From Fibrobacter sp. (lineage in GTDB: Bacteria; Fibrobacterota; Fibrobacteria; Fibrobacterales; Fibrobacteraceae), in contig JAAZFC010000074.1 in assembly GCA_012511955.1 (NCBI GenBank), forward strand, positions 1 through 62,108: a stretch of 62,108 nt of DNA, written 5' to 3'. A model generated the notes under the pieces. That model saw only the letters and a program-made list of their open reading frames with translations, was not told where the DNA came from and made no database searches. Each line of letters begins with the position of its first letter. Position 1 is the first letter of the stretch. The translations under genes were made by a program, and so were the position numbers. Shown here one piece after another: positions 30,043-57,694 of the stretch.

Positions 30043-32547
30043 TTACTTTTTAAGCAACTTAGTGCTAAATCCTTGATTGGTACGCAAAATGTATAATCCA
30101 GCAGGTAGGTCTAAAGAAACACTTTGCTGCGGGCTAGTTATATCAATGCGTTGCCATAACTTTCCTTGGGGGCTATAAATCTGTACATAACGCGTGGTTT
30201 TTGGGGTTTGCAAATGCAATAGATTACCGTGCCATTGAACGCTAAAGTTATTGGCTATTTGTAGTTTGCTTTGCACTGAACTGGCAGTTTTTTCTAAAGA
30301 AATTTGCCAAATTGTCCATGTTGCACTTTCGCCAGTTTGCAGTTGAAAATTCACTTGCTGTTTTAAGTTGAGCTTGGAGCCGGCACCAAATTCTTCCCAT
30401 TTTACACAATGGGTGCTGCGTTTTGTGGCTTTAGGCCATAGGGGAGAGTTGGGCATAAAGCTTTGGGTTTTAGTATCGTCAGAGCCATCAACTTGCCCTA
30501 AAGAACCTTGTAGTCCCACAGTAGACTCGTAGTCTAGGCAAATACCTGCATATTCGCTTAAATCAATGCTTTGTGGCTTGCTACCTGTAGGAGTGCTGGC
30601 CCAGGAAAAACCAATTCCTGCGTAATTCCATGCTTGTTCTTCATTTTGTTTAGCAATAAATTCAACACTAATGCTTTGGTTAGTGTTAATGCCATCGGCA
30701 CTGATGTCAGTCATGGTGCTTAGTGTATCGCAATAATTATACCACCAATCGCCTAGTTTACCTGAAGGTTGGCGAACTTGCGCACCAGCTTCGTAATCCC
30801 AAACCACAGTATTTTCACCAGAAGCAGAGCTGCCTTTGTCACTGGAAGATGAACTAGGAGGAATTTCTCTTTCTGCAAATTCTGGCTTAGTCCCAGGGTC
30901 GTTTAAGCTAAATACCAAGGCATTTACTGACATGGGCTCAGCTTGGTAAAGGATTTTATCTTTATCTAAATCTATTCCATGGGCATAAAGGGCATTGCTG
31001 CTTTTATTTTTAAAAGTTTCGCCTCTTAAATAAGCTAAATCAAAAGCTGGAACCCAAGTTCCTCCGTGCACAAAATCGCTGACTTTTAAGTTTAGGGTTT
31101 GCGTACTTTCTTGACGATTAACAACTATCACCGTGAGAGAATCACCTGCAGCAGAAATCGAGGGGTAAATGGAAAGCAAATGATCTTCACTATGCTGTGG
31201 GTTTAAAGCTAGTTCTTTGCCATAAGTGGTGAATAAGTGCATGGTTTCAAACATACCATTGTACATATCCCAGGGAGTAAATAGCTCCACATCTCCGGCT
31301 GCTCCAAATTCTCCTAATTGAGAAGCGTACCACACCGCAGCAGCGGAAGCATCGTTTTTAATCCCATCAATGGTACCAAATTCGGTGAGTCCCGTGGTTA
31401 TTCCGTGGTTTTCACCCACATATTGATCGAGCCAGCGCCTAATGCGCAGTAAAATATATTGCTTATTAAGTTTGTCGTCCCATGCTCCAGTGCTCGTTTT
31501 AAGTCCATTGGAACCAGAAAAGGCGTAAGTTGTGTCAAACCAAACCCGGTGCACTTGTAAAATGTCCGCGCGATCACTAACTTCGTTATAACCAGGGTAA
31601 AAATGTATATCAAACACATCTACTAAGCGTTTCCCAGTGCGTTTTTGTTCTTCGCCGATGCGTTTGATAACATATTCTATAAAAGGGTAGTATTTACCAC
31701 CCACTTCTATGGATTCTTCGTGCCATTTATACCATTGCCATTCATTGGTAAGCACTGGGCCTACAATTTTAATTTCGGGGAATTTGGCGCGAGCTTTGAG
31801 GGCGGCATCCACATATATTTGCACGAAATCTTCAGCGCTCATGGTGTCTGGCATAACATCGTCATGGGTGGAATGCCAAATATCGGCTTCATTATCCGTA
31901 TTCCAGTACAAAAAGTTGTTTTTATCTAAGCCTAATTGATCAGCTCCAGAGCCAAACCAGTGATCCATAATGCCGAGGTTTTCTTCTACGCTACAACGTT
32001 CTAAATAAAGTTCAGGATCGTGGGGAGCGCTAGGCTTTTCACCTTCAGCGCTAATTGGAGGAGTTCCAGCCCAGTTGTTATTGGTACCTATGCTGCCAGT
32101 GTTTTCATCTATCCACCAAGCGTAACCATTATAGAGACCATCATTAAAATTATATTCATCGGTTTTCGCACACCAACCCAGCATAGAAATTGCAAACAAT
32201 CCTTGTACACCGGTTAATCTATCGTTAATTTCTTGGGCGCTAAAATCCCAATCGTTGTCGTAAACATTGTTATACCAGTCAGGGTGGGAAGTTTTTTTGC
32301 GTTTCCAGTTGTATTTAGAAGCGTTGTTTCCGTTGTTCATGCGCACCATGGTTAAACCTGCATCCAAATACTTTGTAATGGTATCAGCATGGGTGGGGAC
32401 ATCAGAGTTCTGCGAAATACCGTGGTTTTTACCGTAAATATAAGGTGAAACTTTTTGAGTTGCGCCTTGAGCGTCAACTGTGAATTCCAAAGTAGAGGCC
32501 ATGGAAAAAGTGACGCTCAAAATTAAGAATAATATTAACTTCTTCAT
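30043..32547 (-). CDS. secreted GH44 endoglucanase/xyloglucanase with C-terminal sorting domain
   Basis: Predicted extracellular beta-glucanase. From the start at 32547 (834 residues): signal peptide MKKLILFLILSVTFSMAS; a GH44 catalytic domain to about 540 with acid/base Glu220 in YWNTDNEADIW and candidate nucleophile Glu389 in GLTEFGT; a Ser-rich linker near 560-575; a beta-rich, CBM11-like module to about 770; and a C-terminal domain with VQIYSPQGKLWQRI and DLPAGLYILRT, typical of type IX secretion sorting. AGAGG lies five bases before this ATG, which overlaps the upstream stop. The family usually has NEP where this has NEA. It is third in an operon after a TIGR02147 regulator and a lipoprotein. 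Family assignment is from motifs. Confidence 0.85.
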   Translation of the reverse strand: MKKLILFLILSVTFSMASTLEFTVDAQGATQKVSPYIYGKNHGISQNSDVPTHADTITKYLDAGLTMVRMNNGNNASKYNWKRKKTSHPDWYNNVYDNDWDFSAQEINDRLTGVQGLFAISMLGWCAKTDEYNFNDGLYNGYAWWIDENTGSIGTNNNWAGTPPISAEGEKPSAPHDPELYLERCSVEENLGIMDHWFGSGADQLGLDKNNFLYWNTDNEADIWHSTHDDVMPDTMSAEDFVQIYVDAALKARAKFPEIKIVGPVLTNEWQWYKWHEESIEVGGKYYPFIEYVIKRIGEEQKRTGKRLVDVFDIHFYPGYNEVSDRADILQVHRVWFDTTYAFSGSNGLKTSTGAWDDKLNKQYILLRIRRWLDQYVGENHGITTGLTEFGTIDGIKNDASAAAVWYASQLGEFGAAGDVELFTPWDMYNGMFETMHLFTTYGKELALNPQHSEDHLLSIYPSISAAGDSLTVIVVNRQESTQTLNLKVSDFVHGGTWVPAFDLAYLRGETFKNKSSNALYAHGIDLDKDKILYQAEPMSVNALVFSLNDPGTKPEFAEREIPPSSSSSDKGSSASGENTVVWDYEAGAQVRQPSGKLGDWWYNYCDTLSTMTDISADGINTNQSISVEFIAKQNEEQAWNYAGIGFSWASTPTGSKPQSIDLSEYAGICLDYESTVGLQGSLGQVDGSDDTKTQSFMPNSPLWPKATKRSTHCVKWEEFGAGSKLNLKQQVNFQLQTGESATWTIWQISLEKTASSVQSKLQIANNFSVQWHGNLLHLQTPKTTRYVQIYSPQGKLWQRIDITSPQQSVSLDLPAGLYILRTNQGFSTKLLKK

Positions 32548-33740
32548 CATGGCCTCTTTAATTGGGGGAACATTTGTTGTGGAACAACACCGTGTAAAAC
32601 TAGATGGTCTAACCATAGTTCTGCTGTATTACCAGTCATAAATATTATACTATTAATGTGACTTAAATCACCTGTCTCTAAAAGCGTGGTTTCTTTTCCA
32701 TTTAGGCTAAAGGCACTGGGCAGCAGGTTCAACCTTTCCCACGAGGAGGGAAGGTGAACCTGGGTGGCATAAGTGCGCACACTGTCTGCCGAGTTGGGGG
32801 GTATAACTATAAGTTGAATTGTAAAATCGCCTTGGCCTTGGGCGTAAAAACTTAAACTGTCCATGTTAGAAAGATCTACAGTATTATTAGGCGTGTCTGC
32901 TAGGTGACTTTCATAAAAGTCCATACCGCAATGAGCAAAGCCGCCGTAACAGACATCAAAGTTAAGATGAGCGGCAACACCTAATTCAGATAATGAAGCT
33001 GGTTTGCGGGCGTCGTGCAAGTTTCCTGGGTTAATGCTACTGCTTGAATCAACGGAACAAAACCACCAGCCAGTACTAGTGAGCCAGTGCCATTTATTGG
33101 CGTTTCCACCTCTAGTAAAGTCTTCTATGATTACTGAATCGCCTTCTGCAATTTCTATATCTTCCCAGACTTCTATTTGGCCACTTTGCACTCTAGTATT
33201 TATTAAGGGCAATAAGCTACTATCACCCTGGGCAATTAAAGTCCATTCTCCAGGAGGAAGCTTGCTGCTAAACTTCCCTTCAGCATCACTTTGAACTTGG
33301 TGCGAAGAGTGAGCGAAATACATTTTATTACTGATTTTTTGCGCTAAATTACCGTGAATTTGAGCTGGTTTTTCCAATTGCAATATTAAATTTTCTTGAG
33401 CTTGGTTGAGAGTCTTTTGCGCCACCAAGCCATTCCATTCGGCTTCGATGGTTAGGGGCCAAGAAGGTGTTTTAATGCTAGTTTGTTTCGATTTTGAACG
33501 CGATGAGTCCGTTACAGGAGATTTGTCTTTCCATATACTGTCAGTCCACCCTTGGATGGGAACCACTTTGAGTAAAGCGTTGCTTACGGGCTGCCCCAAG
33601 GTGTCTAAGACTTGTACAGCTAAAGTGTTGCCAGCTTCATCCCATACGCCGCCGCCCGCGTGGTTCGTTTCTGAGCAACTTAGCCAAATATTTAAGCCTA
33701 GAACAACCAAAAAAGCTATTAATAATTTAAACTTTTTCAT
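32547..33740 (-). CDS. lipoprotein with carboxypeptidase-regulatory-like domain and a beta-rich C-terminal domain
   Basis: The 397-residue product starts at the ATG at 33740 (GGGGG upstream). The lipobox WLSC puts the lipidated Cys at residue 22. The next part, AGGGVWDEAGNTLAVQVLD, then GQPVSNALLKVVP, is a carboxypeptidase-regulatory-like Ig fold and is clearly related to the start of the lipoprotein at 54360. Residues about 205-390 look like a CBM11 or CIA30-type jelly roll (VIIEDFTRGGNANKWHW start, WLDHLVLHG end), probably binding polysaccharide. It overlaps the TIGR02147 gene by 14 nt and the GH44 gene by a few bases, so the three are translated as a unit. Confidence 0.82.
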   Translation of the reverse strand: MKKFKLLIAFLVVLGLNIWLSCSETNHAGGGVWDEAGNTLAVQVLDTLGQPVSNALLKVVPIQGWTDSIWKDKSPVTDSSRSKSKQTSIKTPSWPLTIEAEWNGLVAQKTLNQAQENLILQLEKPAQIHGNLAQKISNKMYFAHSSHQVQSDAEGKFSSKLPPGEWTLIAQGDSSLLPLINTRVQSGQIEVWEDIEIAEGDSVIIEDFTRGGNANKWHWLTSTGWWFCSVDSSSSINPGNLHDARKPASLSELGVAAHLNFDVCYGGFAHCGMDFYESHLADTPNNTVDLSNMDSLSFYAQGQGDFTIQLIVIPPNSADSVRTYATQVHLPSSWERLNLLPSAFSLNGKETTLLETGDLSHINSIIFMTGNTAELWLDHLVLHGVVPQQMFPQLKRP

Positions 33741-34620
33741 TGTTACCCCCACCATCGTTTAGCTGTGCTACGGGGAAAAAAGCATGAGCCAAACGCATAA
33801 TGCGGTCGGGATTTTGCACCCCTTCGATGCGATCCCTAAGCTGTCTTTTGGCTTGCATAATTATCTCTATGCAATCATCAAAAGCTTCCGCATCTACCGC
33901 CATATTTATTACCCTAATATCTCGTTTTGCAGGTGGGTGATTTTCTAAGCTAAGCTTGGCCAAATCCAAACTGTGATTTTGGTAAGCTCGTACCATCACT
34001 TTTTGCACTTGGCCACCGGTTTGTACGCTTTTTTCAGAGGCGTGCCACCTACCTTCGTTGTCTTGATAAACTAAATCGATGTTTTCTAAAAGTTCTAGTG
34101 ATTTTCTCACTTGCGCTGCAGAAATCGTTGGAGTTAAAAGTTTTCCAACTTCTTCGTAATTATCGCTAACTTCATAAATTTGAATAATCGCCCTGAGAGT
34201 GGAATGATACCATTTTTCGTAAAGGCGATTTTGTTCTGCCTTTAAAGTGCGTGCTTTGTTTCCCCGCAAATTGATTATTTGTTCAAATAACTTTTGCGAT
34301 TCAGCTTGCTTTCTGCATTTTCCAAATTTTACAAGTAGTTCAAAGTATTCTTTTGCTAAACCTTGCAAATGCAAATAATCACAAAATCTTGGCAAGGCAG
34401 CTGGGGATATGTGCAACTGTTTTTGCAAGATCCTATAAACTTGGCTGGCATCTAATTTTACGCCTTGACCAAATTTATTATAAGAAAACCAAGAATATTT
34501 CAGCTTGTAAGTATTGAACCAACTTTGCAAATATTCTCTATAATCCAAAAAATCAAAAACAGAAACTCCACAGTTTTTTGCAGAATTTTCATAATTTTTT
34601 GCAATGGATTTTTTCTTCAT
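33727..34620 (-). CDS. TIGR02147 family regulator-like protein (first copy)
   Basis: The 297-residue soluble protein matches the TIGR02147 family, expanded in Fibrobacter. Markers are FDFLDYREYLQSWFNTYK at about 22-39, a helix-turn-helix-like stretch (VKLDASQVYRILQKQLHISP), WYHSTLRAII near residue 138, LLTPTISAAQVRKSLELLENIDLV, and LSLENHPPAKRDIRVINMAV. The family is thought to regulate transcription, but its mechanism is not established. It heads the operon with the lipoprotein and GH44 gene and overlaps the lipoprotein by 14 nt. A second copy at 53489 has the same neighbour. Confidence 0.88.
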   Translation of the reverse strand: MKKKSIAKNYENSAKNCGVSVFDFLDYREYLQSWFNTYKLKYSWFSYNKFGQGVKLDASQVYRILQKQLHISPAALPRFCDYLHLQGLAKEYFELLVKFGKCRKQAESQKLFEQIINLRGNKARTLKAEQNRLYEKWYHSTLRAIIQIYEVSDNYEEVGKLLTPTISAAQVRKSLELLENIDLVYQDNEGRWHASEKSVQTGGQVQKVMVRAYQNHSLDLAKLSLENHPPAKRDIRVINMAVDAEAFDDCIEIIMQAKRQLRDRIEGVQNPDRIMRLAHAFFPVAQLNDGGGNNEKV

Positions 34621-53387: not shown

Positions 53388-53427
53388 AATTAGGTGTTTT
53401 AAAACGGTTTTTTAAACTGTTGATTTT

Positions 53428-53448
53428 AAGGTCAACACTAAGGTCAAC
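53428..53448. promoter_or_regulatory. direct repeat AAGGTCAAC x2 upstream of the second TIGR02147 gene
   Basis: Two copies of AAGGTCAAC at 53428-53436 and 53440-53448 are spaced 12 bases apart, start to start. They lie 41 bases before the ATG at 53489, and could be an operator. GTTTTAAAAC (53396-53405) lies just upstream. Confidence 0.35.
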
Positions 53449-53488
53449 GAAGTTTGTTTTAGTTGGCTTTTGCATATATATTTGTTTT

Positions 53489-54367
53489 ATGGGTCTAAAG
53501 CAAAATCCAGATATATATAAATACACCGATTATCGCGCATTTTTGCGTGATTGGTTTGAAGCCTATAAAATGGATTCAAGTTATATGAGTTATCGCTATT
53601 TATCTCGGCGCACAGGAGTAGATGCGGGGTATTTAGCTCATGTTTTTCAAGGAAACAAGCATTTATCAGATAAAGCGGTGAAGATTTTTGCCGAATATTT
53701 AGAATTTGATAGCAATGCTAGTCGCTATTTTGCTGCCATGGTGCTATTTAACAAAGCTCGCCGTGAAGAAGACATACGCGATCGTTTCAACAAACTTATG
53801 TCATTGCGAGATTCTGATGCTCGAATATTAAACCAACAGGAATACCGCTATTGGATGCACTGGTATATACCAGCGGTGCGCTTAACTCTGCTAACCGAAG
53901 ATTTCACTGGAGATTTTAAACATTTGGGGCAGCGAATTACCCCACATATTACTGCAGCTCAAGCCAAAGAAGCGGTGCAGGTATTGTTAGATTTAGGACT
54001 AGTGGTTTTGCGTGATGATGGGGTTTACGAAGTGCAAGATGCGCATCTTTCCACCGGAGATGAGTGGACCAGCGCAGCCATTAGGGAATTTCAATCTAAA
54101 ACTTTGCAGTTAGCCCAAAACAGTTTGCGTAACCATCCCCCAGAAATCAGGGAAATAGCCACCCTTAGTTTAGCTGTTCCCAAAGAAGAAATAGCCACTT
54201 TGCAAGAAATGATGCGAGATTTTCGCTCCAAAGTGGCTAAATGGGCCGTGGCCATGGATAGTTCGGACTATGTAATGCAAATGAATTTATCGTGTTTTCC
54301 CATAAGTGTTTTTAGCGAAGATGTGGATGCTTTTAAAAAGAAAAAAAAGCGAGGCAAAAATGCATAA
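53489..54367 (+). CDS. TIGR02147 family regulator-like protein (second copy)
   Basis: The 292-residue product from the ATG at 53489 has the same plan as the first copy: KYTDYRAFLRDWFEAYK near residue 12, a helix-turn-helix-like VDAGYLAHVFQGNKHLS, YWMHWYIPAVRLTLL near residue 125, RITPHITAAQAKEAVQVLLDLGLV and NSLRNHPPEIREIATLSLAV. The longer frame to 53420 starts at a TTG with no ribosome-binding site. Its last 8 bases overlap the lipoprotein start. It may regulate its own operon. Confidence 0.88.
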   Translation: MGLKQNPDIYKYTDYRAFLRDWFEAYKMDSSYMSYRYLSRRTGVDAGYLAHVFQGNKHLSDKAVKIFAEYLEFDSNASRYFAAMVLFNKARREEDIRDRFNKLMSLRDSDARILNQQEYRYWMHWYIPAVRLTLLTEDFTGDFKHLGQRITPHITAAQAKEAVQVLLDLGLVVLRDDGVYEVQDAHLSTGDEWTSAAIREFQSKTLQLAQNSLRNHPPEIREIATLSLAVPKEEIATLQEMMRDFRSKVAKWAVAMDSSDYVMQMNLSCFPISVFSEDVDAFKKKKKRGKNA

Positions 54368-56027
54368 ATGGTTTTTGTTTTTCTTTTTTGTCATTCTTAG
54401 CTCCTGTTCCGATAAGGTGGCTGGGCGTGGGGGAGTAGATGAAACTTCTAATGGTATCCACGCTTATGTTACTGATGAAAATGGCAATGGTGTTGCCTCT
54501 GCTATGGTGATATTGCGTCCTGTAAATTACTTGGCACAAAATAGCATGGCTTTGCAAAACTTGGATTTGGGGATATATAATGGCACCACTGATGAATACG
54601 GGCATTTTCACATAGATACTCTTGTCCCTGGTGAATATATACTCGAAGTGCGTGCACCGGAGCTTGGAACTTTGACTAAGTTAGTAGTAGAAAAAGCCAC
54701 TTTGCAAGATGTTTTGGCTGATACCATATCTTTGCAAAAATACGCATCTTTAACGGGGAAGGTTGACCTAGCTCCAGATATGCCCTATGCCCGGGTGGCA
54801 ATATTGGGAATGGATAGAGTTGTGCATACGGATAAAGAGGGTAATTTTAGCATTGATGGAGTGCCTTCAGGAGATATAATCACTGTGGTTTTAGCTGCCA
54901 CCGAAGATAAAATATTAGGCGAGTTAGCTTTAAATATAAATCCTTCCGAAGAGCTAAGCATAGGTGGATTTATCAGTTCGCCTTCTTCTTTAGATGAATG
55001 GAAATACAGTGCAGACATAGCCATAAACACTCAAGATTTAACTAAAGATTTGCAAAATTACAGTTTTCCCATACATTTTCGTGGTGGGGATTTTCCCGTA
55101 GGTTCTTCTTTGACTGGAGCAGATTTGCGTCTTTACGATGCAAAAGAACAAGCTGTGGAGTTTGCAGTGACCCATTGGAGCCCCTCTACCCGTGAGGGGA
55201 CTATTTGGGTGCGTTTAGATAAAATTAAGGCAAGCGATGCTATAAATTTAAAACTCTATTGGGGAAGACCAGGAACTTTGTCTTTAAGTACTCCAGAAAA
55301 TGTATTTGACACAGCGCAATGGGCGGCGGTGGTGCCTTTGCAAAACTCTTTTGTAGATGCTGAAGGTGATTTGCGCACTCCGGTTTATGCCACTGGATCA
55401 GTGCCTGGTTTGGTGATAGGTACTGATGGCTTTCCTCCGGAGTTTTCAGCTTCAGGAACTTGGTTCGATGGCTTGGAGCAGGGAGTGGGCATCCACGGTT
55501 TTCCTCTGGATTTTGGTCGTGAAAATTATACAGTGCAAATTTGGCTACGCCCTGAACTTGAGGGGGGAATTTGGCTAAGTCGAGATAATAAAGCTGGGGG
55601 TAACTGGAATCATTCTGAAAGAGCTTTTTATTTAGGTGGAGATTTTTCTATCAACGCTAATCGTGGCTTGCAACCCACGCAAATTACTCATGGAAGCCCT
55701 TACAATACTTATGCGAGAGCAAAGGATTCAGTGGCTTTGCACGAATGGGTGCATTTGGCACTGCGCTGCACTACTTGGAACGAAGATACTTTGCAGGCCC
55801 AATGGTATATAAACGGGCAAGCTGTGAAAACCAATAATGATTTGGTATTGTCAGAGCCAGATAAAATGCGCGATACCTTGTATATAGCCACGGAAATGTT
55901 TGAGCGTTCATTTTTGGGAGATATTTACCAATTACAGATTGCCAAAAAAGCATTGGATCCAGCTCGCATAGCTTTTGATGCTTTGATCCAACGACCAAAC
56001 AACCCTTTAATTTCTGTGAAATTTTAA
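54360..56027 (+). CDS. lipoprotein with carboxypeptidase-regulatory-like, DUF2341-like and LamG-like domains
   Basis: The 555-residue product has a lipobox with the lipidated Cys at residue 16 (LSSCSDK). A conserved GGVDETSNGIHAYVTDENG, then GVASAMVILRPVNYL, forms the first Ig-like part, related to that of the lipoprotein at 32547. A second Ig-like unit follows (about 125-200). Then comes a DUF2341-like stretch (about 210-310, LRLYDAKEQAVEFAVTHW) and a LamG/concanavalin-like domain (about 320-545, YTVQIWLRPELEGGIW and HEWVHLALR), probably binding a carbohydrate. The ATG at 54360 overlaps the TIGR02147 stop by 8 nt. Confidence 0.85.
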   Translation: MHKWFLFFFFVILSSCSDKVAGRGGVDETSNGIHAYVTDENGNGVASAMVILRPVNYLAQNSMALQNLDLGIYNGTTDEYGHFHIDTLVPGEYILEVRAPELGTLTKLVVEKATLQDVLADTISLQKYASLTGKVDLAPDMPYARVAILGMDRVVHTDKEGNFSIDGVPSGDIITVVLAATEDKILGELALNINPSEELSIGGFISSPSSLDEWKYSADIAINTQDLTKDLQNYSFPIHFRGGDFPVGSSLTGADLRLYDAKEQAVEFAVTHWSPSTREGTIWVRLDKIKASDAINLKLYWGRPGTLSLSTPENVFDTAQWAAVVPLQNSFVDAEGDLRTPVYATGSVPGLVIGTDGFPPEFSASGTWFDGLEQGVGIHGFPLDFGRENYTVQIWLRPELEGGIWLSRDNKAGGNWNHSERAFYLGGDFSINANRGLQPTQITHGSPYNTYARAKDSVALHEWVHLALRCTTWNEDTLQAQWYINGQAVKTNNDLVLSEPDKMRDTLYIATEMFERSFLGDIYQLQIAKKALDPARIAFDALIQRPNNPLISVKF

Positions 56028-56111: not shown

Positions 56112-56453
56112 ATGAATAAGAAGCCTGTATTTATTTTTATATCTATTTTGTTTTTACTAGCTCTAAGCTCTTGTGAAATAACCGTAGTTGATAATTCAAC
56201 TCGTGATTGCGAAACTTACGGGTATGGGTATGTAACTGTTGATAATAAAACTTCAGATCCTTATGATGTTTATTTAGATGGTTATAGAGAGTTTACAATT
56301 CAAGGAAGAACGAGTAAAGAGATTGAAGTAGACGAAGGCACTGCCTATTTTGAAGCAGAGCAATTAAGTGGTTACTTGCTATGGCCTACAGAAATTGATA
56401 AGAGAATAAATGTCAAAGCTTGCTCTGAATATGATTTTATAATTAGAGAATAG
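56112..56453 (+). CDS. small predicted lipoprotein of unknown function
   Basis: The 113-residue product has a clear lipobox (ALSSC, Cys at residue 21) and a beta-rich mature part with YGYVTVDNKTSDPYDVYLDG, which resembles small Ig-like surface proteins, but I assign no family. GAGGAG precedes the ATG. It follows the LamG-type lipoprotein by 84 bases, with an AT-rich gap, and is followed by a terminator. Confidence 0.7.
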   Translation: MNKKPVFIFISILFLLALSSCEITVVDNSTRDCETYGYGYVTVDNKTSDPYDVYLDGYREFTIQGRTSKEIEVDEGTAYFEAEQLSGYLLWPTEIDKRINVKACSEYDFIIRE

Positions 56454-56508: not shown

Positions 56509-56581
56509 ATATCTAGGTTTAAAGCTTGAATTTTATTAAGTTAAAATTCAGACGGTGACATTTATTGAGGAGTGCGCAGTA

Positions 56582-57694
56582 ATGCATAGAATTACCAACC
56601 CTTTGCTGATTAAAATGCTCAATGAGCCTTTGGCTTTTAGCGATAAAGATTTTGATGACTTAATAGCTAGCTATTTGTTGGACAATAAAAAATACGCTGT
56701 GCAAAAAGCTTTTGATGATTTCCGTCAATGTATTAGGCATATTTATGATATAAATGAGGATCGTTTAAAAGAAACTTCGTGCGCAAATACAGGAATCATG
56801 GGGGTGTTAAATAAGCGCAGTACAGATAAAAGGCAAAAGAAATATTTTAAACGCATTGCAAATCAAAAAACCTCACAAAAGTATGTGAAAATATATGTAG
56901 AAGGGGATTCTTGGTTTTTATTTCCGCTTTTTGTCAAAGATATAGTGGATTGGCTTAGCAAAAATCCTCATTATCTGCTTTATTCTGATGCCTATGGCGG
57001 AGATTGGCTCACCAATATTATTTATGAGGGTCAATATATAGAAGCTTTGACTGTACACGACCCCGATGTTTTTTTGATAAGTGGAGGCGGTAACGATTTG
57101 GTGGGAAACGAACGCCTTGCGGTGATGGTAAGTGGCAAAGCGCAGCAAAAGTCCAAGCACACCCCAGAAACTTTAGCCGATATTAGTGATGCCAGCCAGC
57201 GGGAACTTATTTTATTGGCACAACCCTATATAACCAAAGATTTTTATAGCTTTATTTGGACTTTGAAAGCCCAATTTACCATGCTTTTTAAAGGGATATA
57301 TGAAAACACCACAAAGTTTAAAGATATGATTACCATAACCCACGGATATGCCTATCCTTATCCCAAAAAAGGCAATAACTTTAGCTTAGGAACTCCATTG
57401 CAACCATTGGTAAATAAGGTGGCAGAAACAGGTAAATGGCTATTTAGACCTTTGATGATTAAGGGGATTTTGGATCCTCGCTTGCAACAAGCCCTGGCCA
57501 TGACTTTTATTTATGAATACAATGAGATGCTTATCGACTTATCTAAAAAGTTTGCCAATGTGCATCACATTGACTGTCGTGATATACCGCAAAAACAAAG
57601 CGATTGGTACGATGAACTTCATCTTAAAAGTCATAAATACAAACAAGTGGCCCAGCGCTATCAGAGCTTAATTGATAGCAAATTTAAGACTTGA
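56582..57694 (+). CDS. SGNH/GDSL-type hydrolase-like protein
   Basis: The 370-residue product (ATG at 56582, GAGGAG upstream) has the blocks of a SGNH esterase: block I VEGDSWFLFP near residue 106, block III GGGNDLVGNE near residue 165, and block V DELHLKSHKY near residue 342 with the Asp-His pair. The nucleophile would be the Ser in GDS. A long Lys-rich N-terminal part (1-100) has no match I recognise, and there is no signal peptide, so it may be cytoplasmic. The substrate is unknown. The next gene, on the minus strand, ends 7 bases away. Confidence 0.8.
   Translation: MHRITNPLLIKMLNEPLAFSDKDFDDLIASYLLDNKKYAVQKAFDDFRQCIRHIYDINEDRLKETSCANTGIMGVLNKRSTDKRQKKYFKRIANQKTSQKYVKIYVEGDSWFLFPLFVKDIVDWLSKNPHYLLYSDAYGGDWLTNIIYEGQYIEALTVHDPDVFLISGGGNDLVGNERLAVMVSGKAQQKSKHTPETLADISDASQRELILLAQPYITKDFYSFIWTLKAQFTMLFKGIYENTTKFKDMITITHGYAYPYPKKGNNFSLGTPLQPLVNKVAETGKWLFRPLMIKGILDPRLQQALAMTFIYEYNEMLIDLSKKFANVHHIDCRDIPQKQSDWYDELHLKSHKYKQVAQRYQSLIDSKFKT

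Follow-up and report, generated by a model that had tools for sequence, protein, structure and literature searches.

The locus raises the question of why a gene for a putative transcription regulator should be joined, by an overlap of a few nucleotides, to a gene for an exported lipoprotein, and what the two proteins do together. The window (the whole stretch of 62,108 nucleotides that was analysed) contains two such pairs. According to the original prediction, the pair combines a conserved front end, described as a GGV-DE-N Ig-like block, with exchangeable back ends next to a dedicated regulator, and might form an undescribed signalling or surface-display system. The pair under study consists of the following features.

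53489-54367, plus strand: TIGR02147/DUF4423 transcription regulator, 292 amino acids, with an HTH-like N-terminal part, a winged-helix-like middle and a C-terminal domain.
54360-56027, plus strand: partner lipoprotein, 555 amino acids, with a signal peptide, the lipobox ILSSC, the motif AGRGGVDETSNG, and CarboxypepD_reg, DUF2341 and LamG/ConA-like domains.
54405-54455, plus strand: codons Cys16-Gly32 of the lipoprotein, the conserved post-lipobox motif (CSDKVAGRGGVDETSNG).

The two reading frames overlap by exactly 8 nt (ATGCATAA, 54360-54367), as predicted. The regulator is a full-length member of TIGR02147 (Fsuc_second; 234 bits, cut-off 50, model positions 2-270) and DUF4423 (PF14394; 8.7e-26, 91 bits, cut-off 30), passing both curated cut-offs by a wide margin along the whole model. 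These families are annotated solely as a paralogous group and a domain of unknown function. For this member HTH_3 and HTH_31 fall below their cut-offs; among 42 relatives the strongest HTH_3 match is 3.6e-6. The AlphaFold2 model of the regulator (pLDDT 88.5, pTM 0.68) comprises an HTH-like helical domain, a winged-helix-like segment and a C-terminal domain, and contains no membrane segment; a fold search of the PDB with this model returned weak winged-helix matches and no close fold.

The lipoprotein has a signal peptide, lipobox and cysteine (MHKWFLFFFFVILSSC) that predict acylation, and its mature form would begin with CSDKVAGRGGVDETSNG, directly after ILSSC. Pfam identifies CarboxypepD_reg (5.1e-12), DUF2341 (4.8e-10) and Laminin_G_3 (3e-10) domains; the last two had been anticipated from the sequence. 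AlphaFold2 gave no usable model of the lipoprotein alone (pLDDT 36). From its LamG/ConA-like domain we infer a glycan-binding surface protein. Directly 5' of the cassette lies a gene for a FISUMP/Fib_succ_major protein (TIGR02145; 52749-53387), a member of a Fibrobacter paralogous family without known function, which ends 30 bp ahead of the predicted operator described below. Directly 3' is a small lipoprotein (56112-56453) with a weak NigD-like match only, and 56555-57694 encodes a 379-residue protein with sub-threshold matches to GDSL hydrolases.

The second pair in the window, copy 1, is located on the opposite strand.

33727-34620, minus strand: second TIGR02147 regulator (TIGR02147, 202.7 bits; DUF4423, 1.1e-24).
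32547-33755, minus strand: copy 1 partner lipoprotein, with a lipobox and the motif AGGGVWDEAGN.
30043-32616, minus strand: GH44 glycoside hydrolase with a T9SS sorting domain, directly 3' of copy 1 (PF12891, 3.8e-24; TIGR04183).

The GH44 gene is likely to be part of the output of the copy 1 module. The genome to which the window belongs (G000; 2.68 Mb in 150 contigs) encodes 11 TIGR02147 regulators, ten with a partner directly downstream and one with a convergent partner, and the recurrence of the pair is therefore confirmed. Its cassettes adjoin two GH9 genes and genes for GH10, GH16, GH5, GH44 and a CE2 esterase; L053 and L059 have no polysaccharide gene alongside, which we count against our preferred explanation. 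These neighbours are most simply accounted for together if each module serves a single plant polysaccharide. The L053 partner (G000:C130) is membrane-anchored and not lipidated, and retains the motif in the form AGGSATGN; a type IV pilin-like gene cluster is located opposite it.

How general is this pairing? TIGR02147 genes occur in 41 of 41 Fibrobacterota genomes, in which their copy number ranges from 1 to at least 46. We analysed 71 Fibrobacterota loci, namely all intact genes of four genomes (G000, G001, G016 and G040) and eight singles. An exported partner, nearly always a lipoprotein, is encoded directly downstream in 67 of them, with a gap of about -28 to +72 nt. One clade is exceptional: its partner gene converges on the regulator gene in G000, belongs to a divergent operon in G001 and is unlinked in G016. 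L101, a regulator of G016, lacks a partner. Named relatives found by protein search are mostly from Fibrobacterota; the named loci belong to Fibrobacter, Raymondbacteria, Chitinispirillia, a Bdellovibrionales record and records titled Sedimentisphaerales and 'bacterium'. By inspection, in about 20 of 29 further loci (Bdellovibrionales relatives and the 'bacterium' record) the regulator gene overlaps or adjoins one for a partner whose motif is related to that described below. A search of viral contigs returned no match. Three loci depart from the usual arrangement: at L065 (G001:C1:90727 and 93211) the first lipoprotein gene is followed on its 3' side by another that also encodes the motif and lacks its own regulator; at L237 (G016:C1:1353507-1355057) a motif-bearing lipoprotein stands beside a TIGR02147 fragment only, a decaying cassette; and L234 (G072:C31:18472-21306) is a 945-residue reading frame with the TIGR02147 domain at its start, a natural fusion to a C-terminal part without assigned identity.

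What the partners have in common is a short sequence. Expectation-maximisation over 128 partners yields a motif of about nine residues just after the lipobox, AGG-[GST]-[ST]-[E/D]-T-[GET]-N, in which the acidic residue and the asparagine carry the most information. Scores above the 99th percentile of shuffled sequences are reached by 101 of 128 partners within residues 1-95, compared with 1 of 115 within residues 96-190 of the same proteins. A profile of lipobox plus motif was then run against three whole genomes; as it had been trained on these partners, the informative point is the absence of other hits. Of 49 hits below 1e-4, 48 lie beside a TIGR02147 gene or fragment, as do all ten hits below 1e-5 in the window's genome. 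The motif is retained in partners that lack an Ig-like domain and in partners with signal-peptidase-I signals, and a related motif (GGVDVGN, GFEIGNG, VGNGGD) in the Bdellovibrionales relatives usually follows a signal of the signal-peptidase-I type. The predicted front end thus survives as a short motif after the lipobox; the Ig-like block as the conserved unit is rejected, given that partners lacking it have the motif. The combination of this front end with exchangeable back ends in a modular pair is borne out. The near-exclusivity of the motif suggests that it is a specific handle.

The pairs are also inherited together. Random mixing of regulator and lipoprotein families, the outcome that the original prediction named as speaking against it, can be rejected: in 18 of 20 reciprocal-best regulator pairs (at least 49% identity, three genera) the best-matching lipoprotein is the cognate one, and in the other two the cognate ranks third. 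This set includes the clade that is unlinked in G016, where partners were assigned by hand from the motif. Motif variants track the regulator clades in the tree, and within genomes motif distance correlates with regulator distance (G000, r=0.41, p=0.011; G001, r=0.23, p=0.021). The correlation in G001 disappears after removal of close relatives, which indicates joint inheritance rather than contact.

The upstream region of the regulator points to what the module may control. Two features are relevant here.

53418-53437, no strand assigned: predicted operator, palindrome TGTTGATTTTAAGGTCAACA, the sole exact match in the window; it is followed by an extra half-site, GGTCAAC.
53477-53482, plus strand: -10-like element TATATT, 40 bp after the palindrome, a spacing that recurs across 28 sites.

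The pattern GTTGA-N8-TCAAC is also present upstream of both orthologous regulators of G010, a genome of another genus (49 and 51% identity), whose partners carry the motifs GGDETTNG and GVDETSNG. As the pattern had been fixed before these loci were read, G010 provides an independent check. Exact sites number six in G000, against three for the reversed control pattern, and ten against one in G010; chance placement was judged from such control patterns together with gene identity. One G000 site is that of the window cassette itself. Three others lie upstream of a PL11 rhamnogalacturonan lyase (5e-214; PDB 4cag/2z8r), of a GH43 enzyme closest to endo-1,5-arabinanases and divergent from a lipoprotein gene, and of a SASA esterase, behind which lies the gene for a GDSL enzyme similar to rhamnogalacturonan acetylesterase. 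The remaining two are within a gene and at a terminator-like hairpin. In G010, three sites belong to the two cassettes, and others stand at two PL11 genes, at a pectinesterase gene and at the gene for a deacetylase-like lipoprotein; the rest lack a convincing target. Sites without a sensible target (C63 and C82 in G000, C34 and C184 in G010) count against our preferred explanation. By their sequences, the identified enzymes fit the breakdown of rhamnogalacturonan I (RG-I) and its arabinan side chains, except for the pectinesterase, which acts on homogalacturonan, and the generic deacetylase. If there are about 30 pectin-related genes per genome, as we assumed, the probability of three pectin hits among five non-cassette sites arising by chance is well below one in a million.

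The position of the palindrome is informative about its possible mode of action. When 28 sites are aligned at the palindrome, a peak of -10-like hexamers appears 40 bp downstream (mean score 4.11, compared with a maximum of 3.96 in 500 shuffles); the TATATT of the window is absent from the consensus-scan listing. TATATT ends 6 nt ahead of the ATG, and the regulator transcript may therefore be leaderless. Several cassettes have the palindrome at this same distance of 52-53 nt from the ATG. If the hexamer is a -10 element, the palindromes are centred near -61.5 (-61 to -62), the classical position for class I activators, and the predicted spacing fits such a site.

A sister clade of regulators (L051, L075 and L081) presents a similar picture. 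The sequences 5' of orthologous regulators align poorly except for shared repeats that are specific to each clade; in this clade the repeat is a palindrome, GTTGTYT-N2-RGACAAC, upstream of the regulator. The same palindrome is found upstream of two lipoprotein genes, the convergent one of G000 (identical 16-mer) and the unlinked one of G016 (one mismatch), so that co-regulation of regulator and partner is supported by palindromes common to both genes where these are not in one operon. Further sites lie about 46-110 bp 5' of genes for Pectinesterase (PF01095), Pec_lyase (PF09492), Pectate_lyase_4 (PF00544) and RGL11 proteins and for a PL1-like enzyme matching the pectate lyase of PDB entry 9buj, in three genera. 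Some one-mismatch sites inside G016 genes are probably due to chance. Given the sites at pectin genes and at the cognate lipoprotein, the clade looks like a pectin regulator with the lipoprotein in its regulon. All three cognate lipoproteins contain LamG domains. Exported proteins of 898 and 870 residues with only a Big_7 domain (L239:5200-7893 and L235:4609-7218) are encoded beside the operator of this clade in G001 and G016, and are candidates for a new pectin-related protein.

A single operator common to all paralogues was sought and not found: sites are clade-specific, and a motif search in G001 returned an A/T-rich palindrome only. The inverted-repeat peak pooled over all Fibrobacterota regulators is present and modest, and is counted against our preferred explanation. 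A long inverted repeat upstream of L104 in G016, AAAATCCGTATTCAGGTAGAATACGGATTTT, occupies the region from about 80 to about 50 nt 5' of the regulator start. The L049 clade has direct repeats, GTGTTCCCAA, in place of a palindrome, conserved in six genomes of six genera.

Our preferred explanation, to which we assign a probability of about 0.62 as a whole, is that the genome contains about 11 paralogous regulatory modules, each specific for a substrate, of which the window pair is one. Its regulator, the TIGR02147/DUF4423 protein, would be a cytoplasmic transcription activator that binds GTTGA-N8-TCAAC, centred near -61.5, ahead both of its own operon and of RG-I genes (PL11 lyase, endo-1,5-arabinanase, and the SASA and rhamnogalacturonan-acetylesterase-like esterases), driving these genes along with itself. 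The co-translated lipoprotein would be exported, lipidated and anchored, and its ConA-like/DUF2341 back end would bind the target glycan, making it the putative surface receptor or capture protein of the module. The regulator may in turn respond to the state of the lipoprotein, for which the post-lipobox motif would be the shared handle. The signalling function proposed at the outset is upheld as far as a predicted output, the pectin-degradation genes, can be named; that the lipoprotein probably senses or binds the glycan is our reading. Since the regulator lacks a membrane segment and the lipoprotein lacks a cytoplasmic part, sensing must involve an unseen step.

A serious rival explanation, which we consider possible, if rather unlikely, is a plain regulon: the C-terminal domain of the regulator senses a cytoplasmic glycan breakdown product, and the lipoprotein is a target only, a surface glycan-binding or capture protein that does not signal and whose motif is a sorting or assembly signal. 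The regulator has no membrane segment and a large conserved C-terminal domain that could bind a ligand, and the G016 lipoprotein is an unlinked target just as the enzymes are. A scan for residue covariation between motif and regulator returned the same regulator positions for control columns; that it established no covariation counts for this explanation and against the preferred one. The rival is at odds with the near-confinement of the motif to TIGR02147 partners, its retention in other phyla, where back ends are unrelated and signal peptides differ, and the nearly one-to-one pairing of overlapping genes. Very improbable, in our view, is an autoregulated repressor of a variable surface protein, in which the cassettes are stand-alone adhesin or antigen units and the links to polysaccharide enzymes are coincidental. 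The lipoproteins do diverge faster than the regulators (about 23-39% versus 50-85% identity between orthologues) and many paralogues have unrelated back ends, but the operators are shared with unlinked pectin genes in several genera, the palindromes lie near -61.5 and not over the promoter core, and cassettes are conserved with their partners across genera. That the motif is a general lipoprotein sorting or export signal of these bacteria, found with TIGR02147 by accident, is hardly credible: its position just after the acylated cysteine resembles that of known sorting signals, but the profile finds almost only TIGR02147 partners and the related motif in Bdellovibrionota follows non-lipoprotein signal peptides.

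The preferred explanation, a substrate-specific activator with feedback from its lipoprotein, can be extended, tentatively and with more doubt than conviction, to a new class of envelope-to-gene signalling present in several phyla. A soluble activator would be controlled by its own co-translated exported partner through the motif at the mature N-terminus, for instance if it bound the not yet exported precursor. Its activity could then depend on whether the surface protein has engaged glycan or been exported, with no need for a membrane-spanning transducer.

Relatives of Fibrobacter are major degraders of plant fibre, and we found no description of the regulators of their polysaccharide genes. 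Fibrobacter is not mentioned in a 2024 review of bacterial hemicellulase regulation (PMC10766802). A proteomic study of the cellulose response of F. succinogenes invokes glucose sensing and cyclic-di-GMP, and a term search of its text returned no TIGR02147/DUF4423-type regulator (PMC6851124). The literature searched contained no mention of TIGR02147, a table entry only for DUF4423, and no function, operator or partner for either; in this respect the system is undescribed, as had been suspected. A large family of unknown function thereby gains a predicted function, operator and target genes, and is paired with a motif-tagged exported partner in several phyla, including the predatory Bdellovibrionota. 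The module suggests how Fibrobacter relatives control polysaccharide digestion, and the window copy appears to switch on genes for the breakdown of one particular pectin.

Among known systems, the post-lipobox motif invites comparison with the lipoprotein export signal (LES) of Bacteroidota surface lipoproteins, which is likewise short, conserved and placed directly behind the acylated cysteine. The two differ in composition, and the LES is common to surface lipoproteins in general, while the present motif is almost restricted to partners of TIGR02147 genes and does not qualify as an LES. PrgX and lipoprotein-derived pheromones exemplify HTH regulators that are read by peptides from exported precursors. 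As in such systems, a soluble HTH protein is functionally linked to the N-terminal region of an exported protein, but the conserved part lies after the cleavage site and not in the signal peptide, and neither Pfam nor the PDB fold search returned a match to the Rgg/PrgX type. In the SigI/RsgI modules of Clostridium thermocellum, RsgI is a single membrane-spanning anti-sigma protein that is cut by proteases to free the sigma factor (PMC4711584, PMC12203970). In both systems a genome encodes multiple paralogous modules, each of which has an extracytoplasmic part matched to a polysaccharide and controls the corresponding enzyme genes; here, unlike in SigI/RsgI, a soluble HTH-type regulator and a separate lipoprotein take the place of a sigma factor and a membrane-spanning protein, and the Pfam and TIGR profile matches include neither a sigma nor an anti-sigma domain. 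Hybrid two-component and ECF sigma/anti-sigma systems of Gram-negative bacteria likewise control polysaccharide-degradation genes locally and according to substrate (PMC10766802). Pfam finds only DUF4423 in the regulator and no kinase or receiver domain, and no ECF sigma or FecR-type anti-sigma family is among the domain matches. The working principle is known from RsgI, hybrid two-component and ECF systems; the parts of the present system are not previously known ones.
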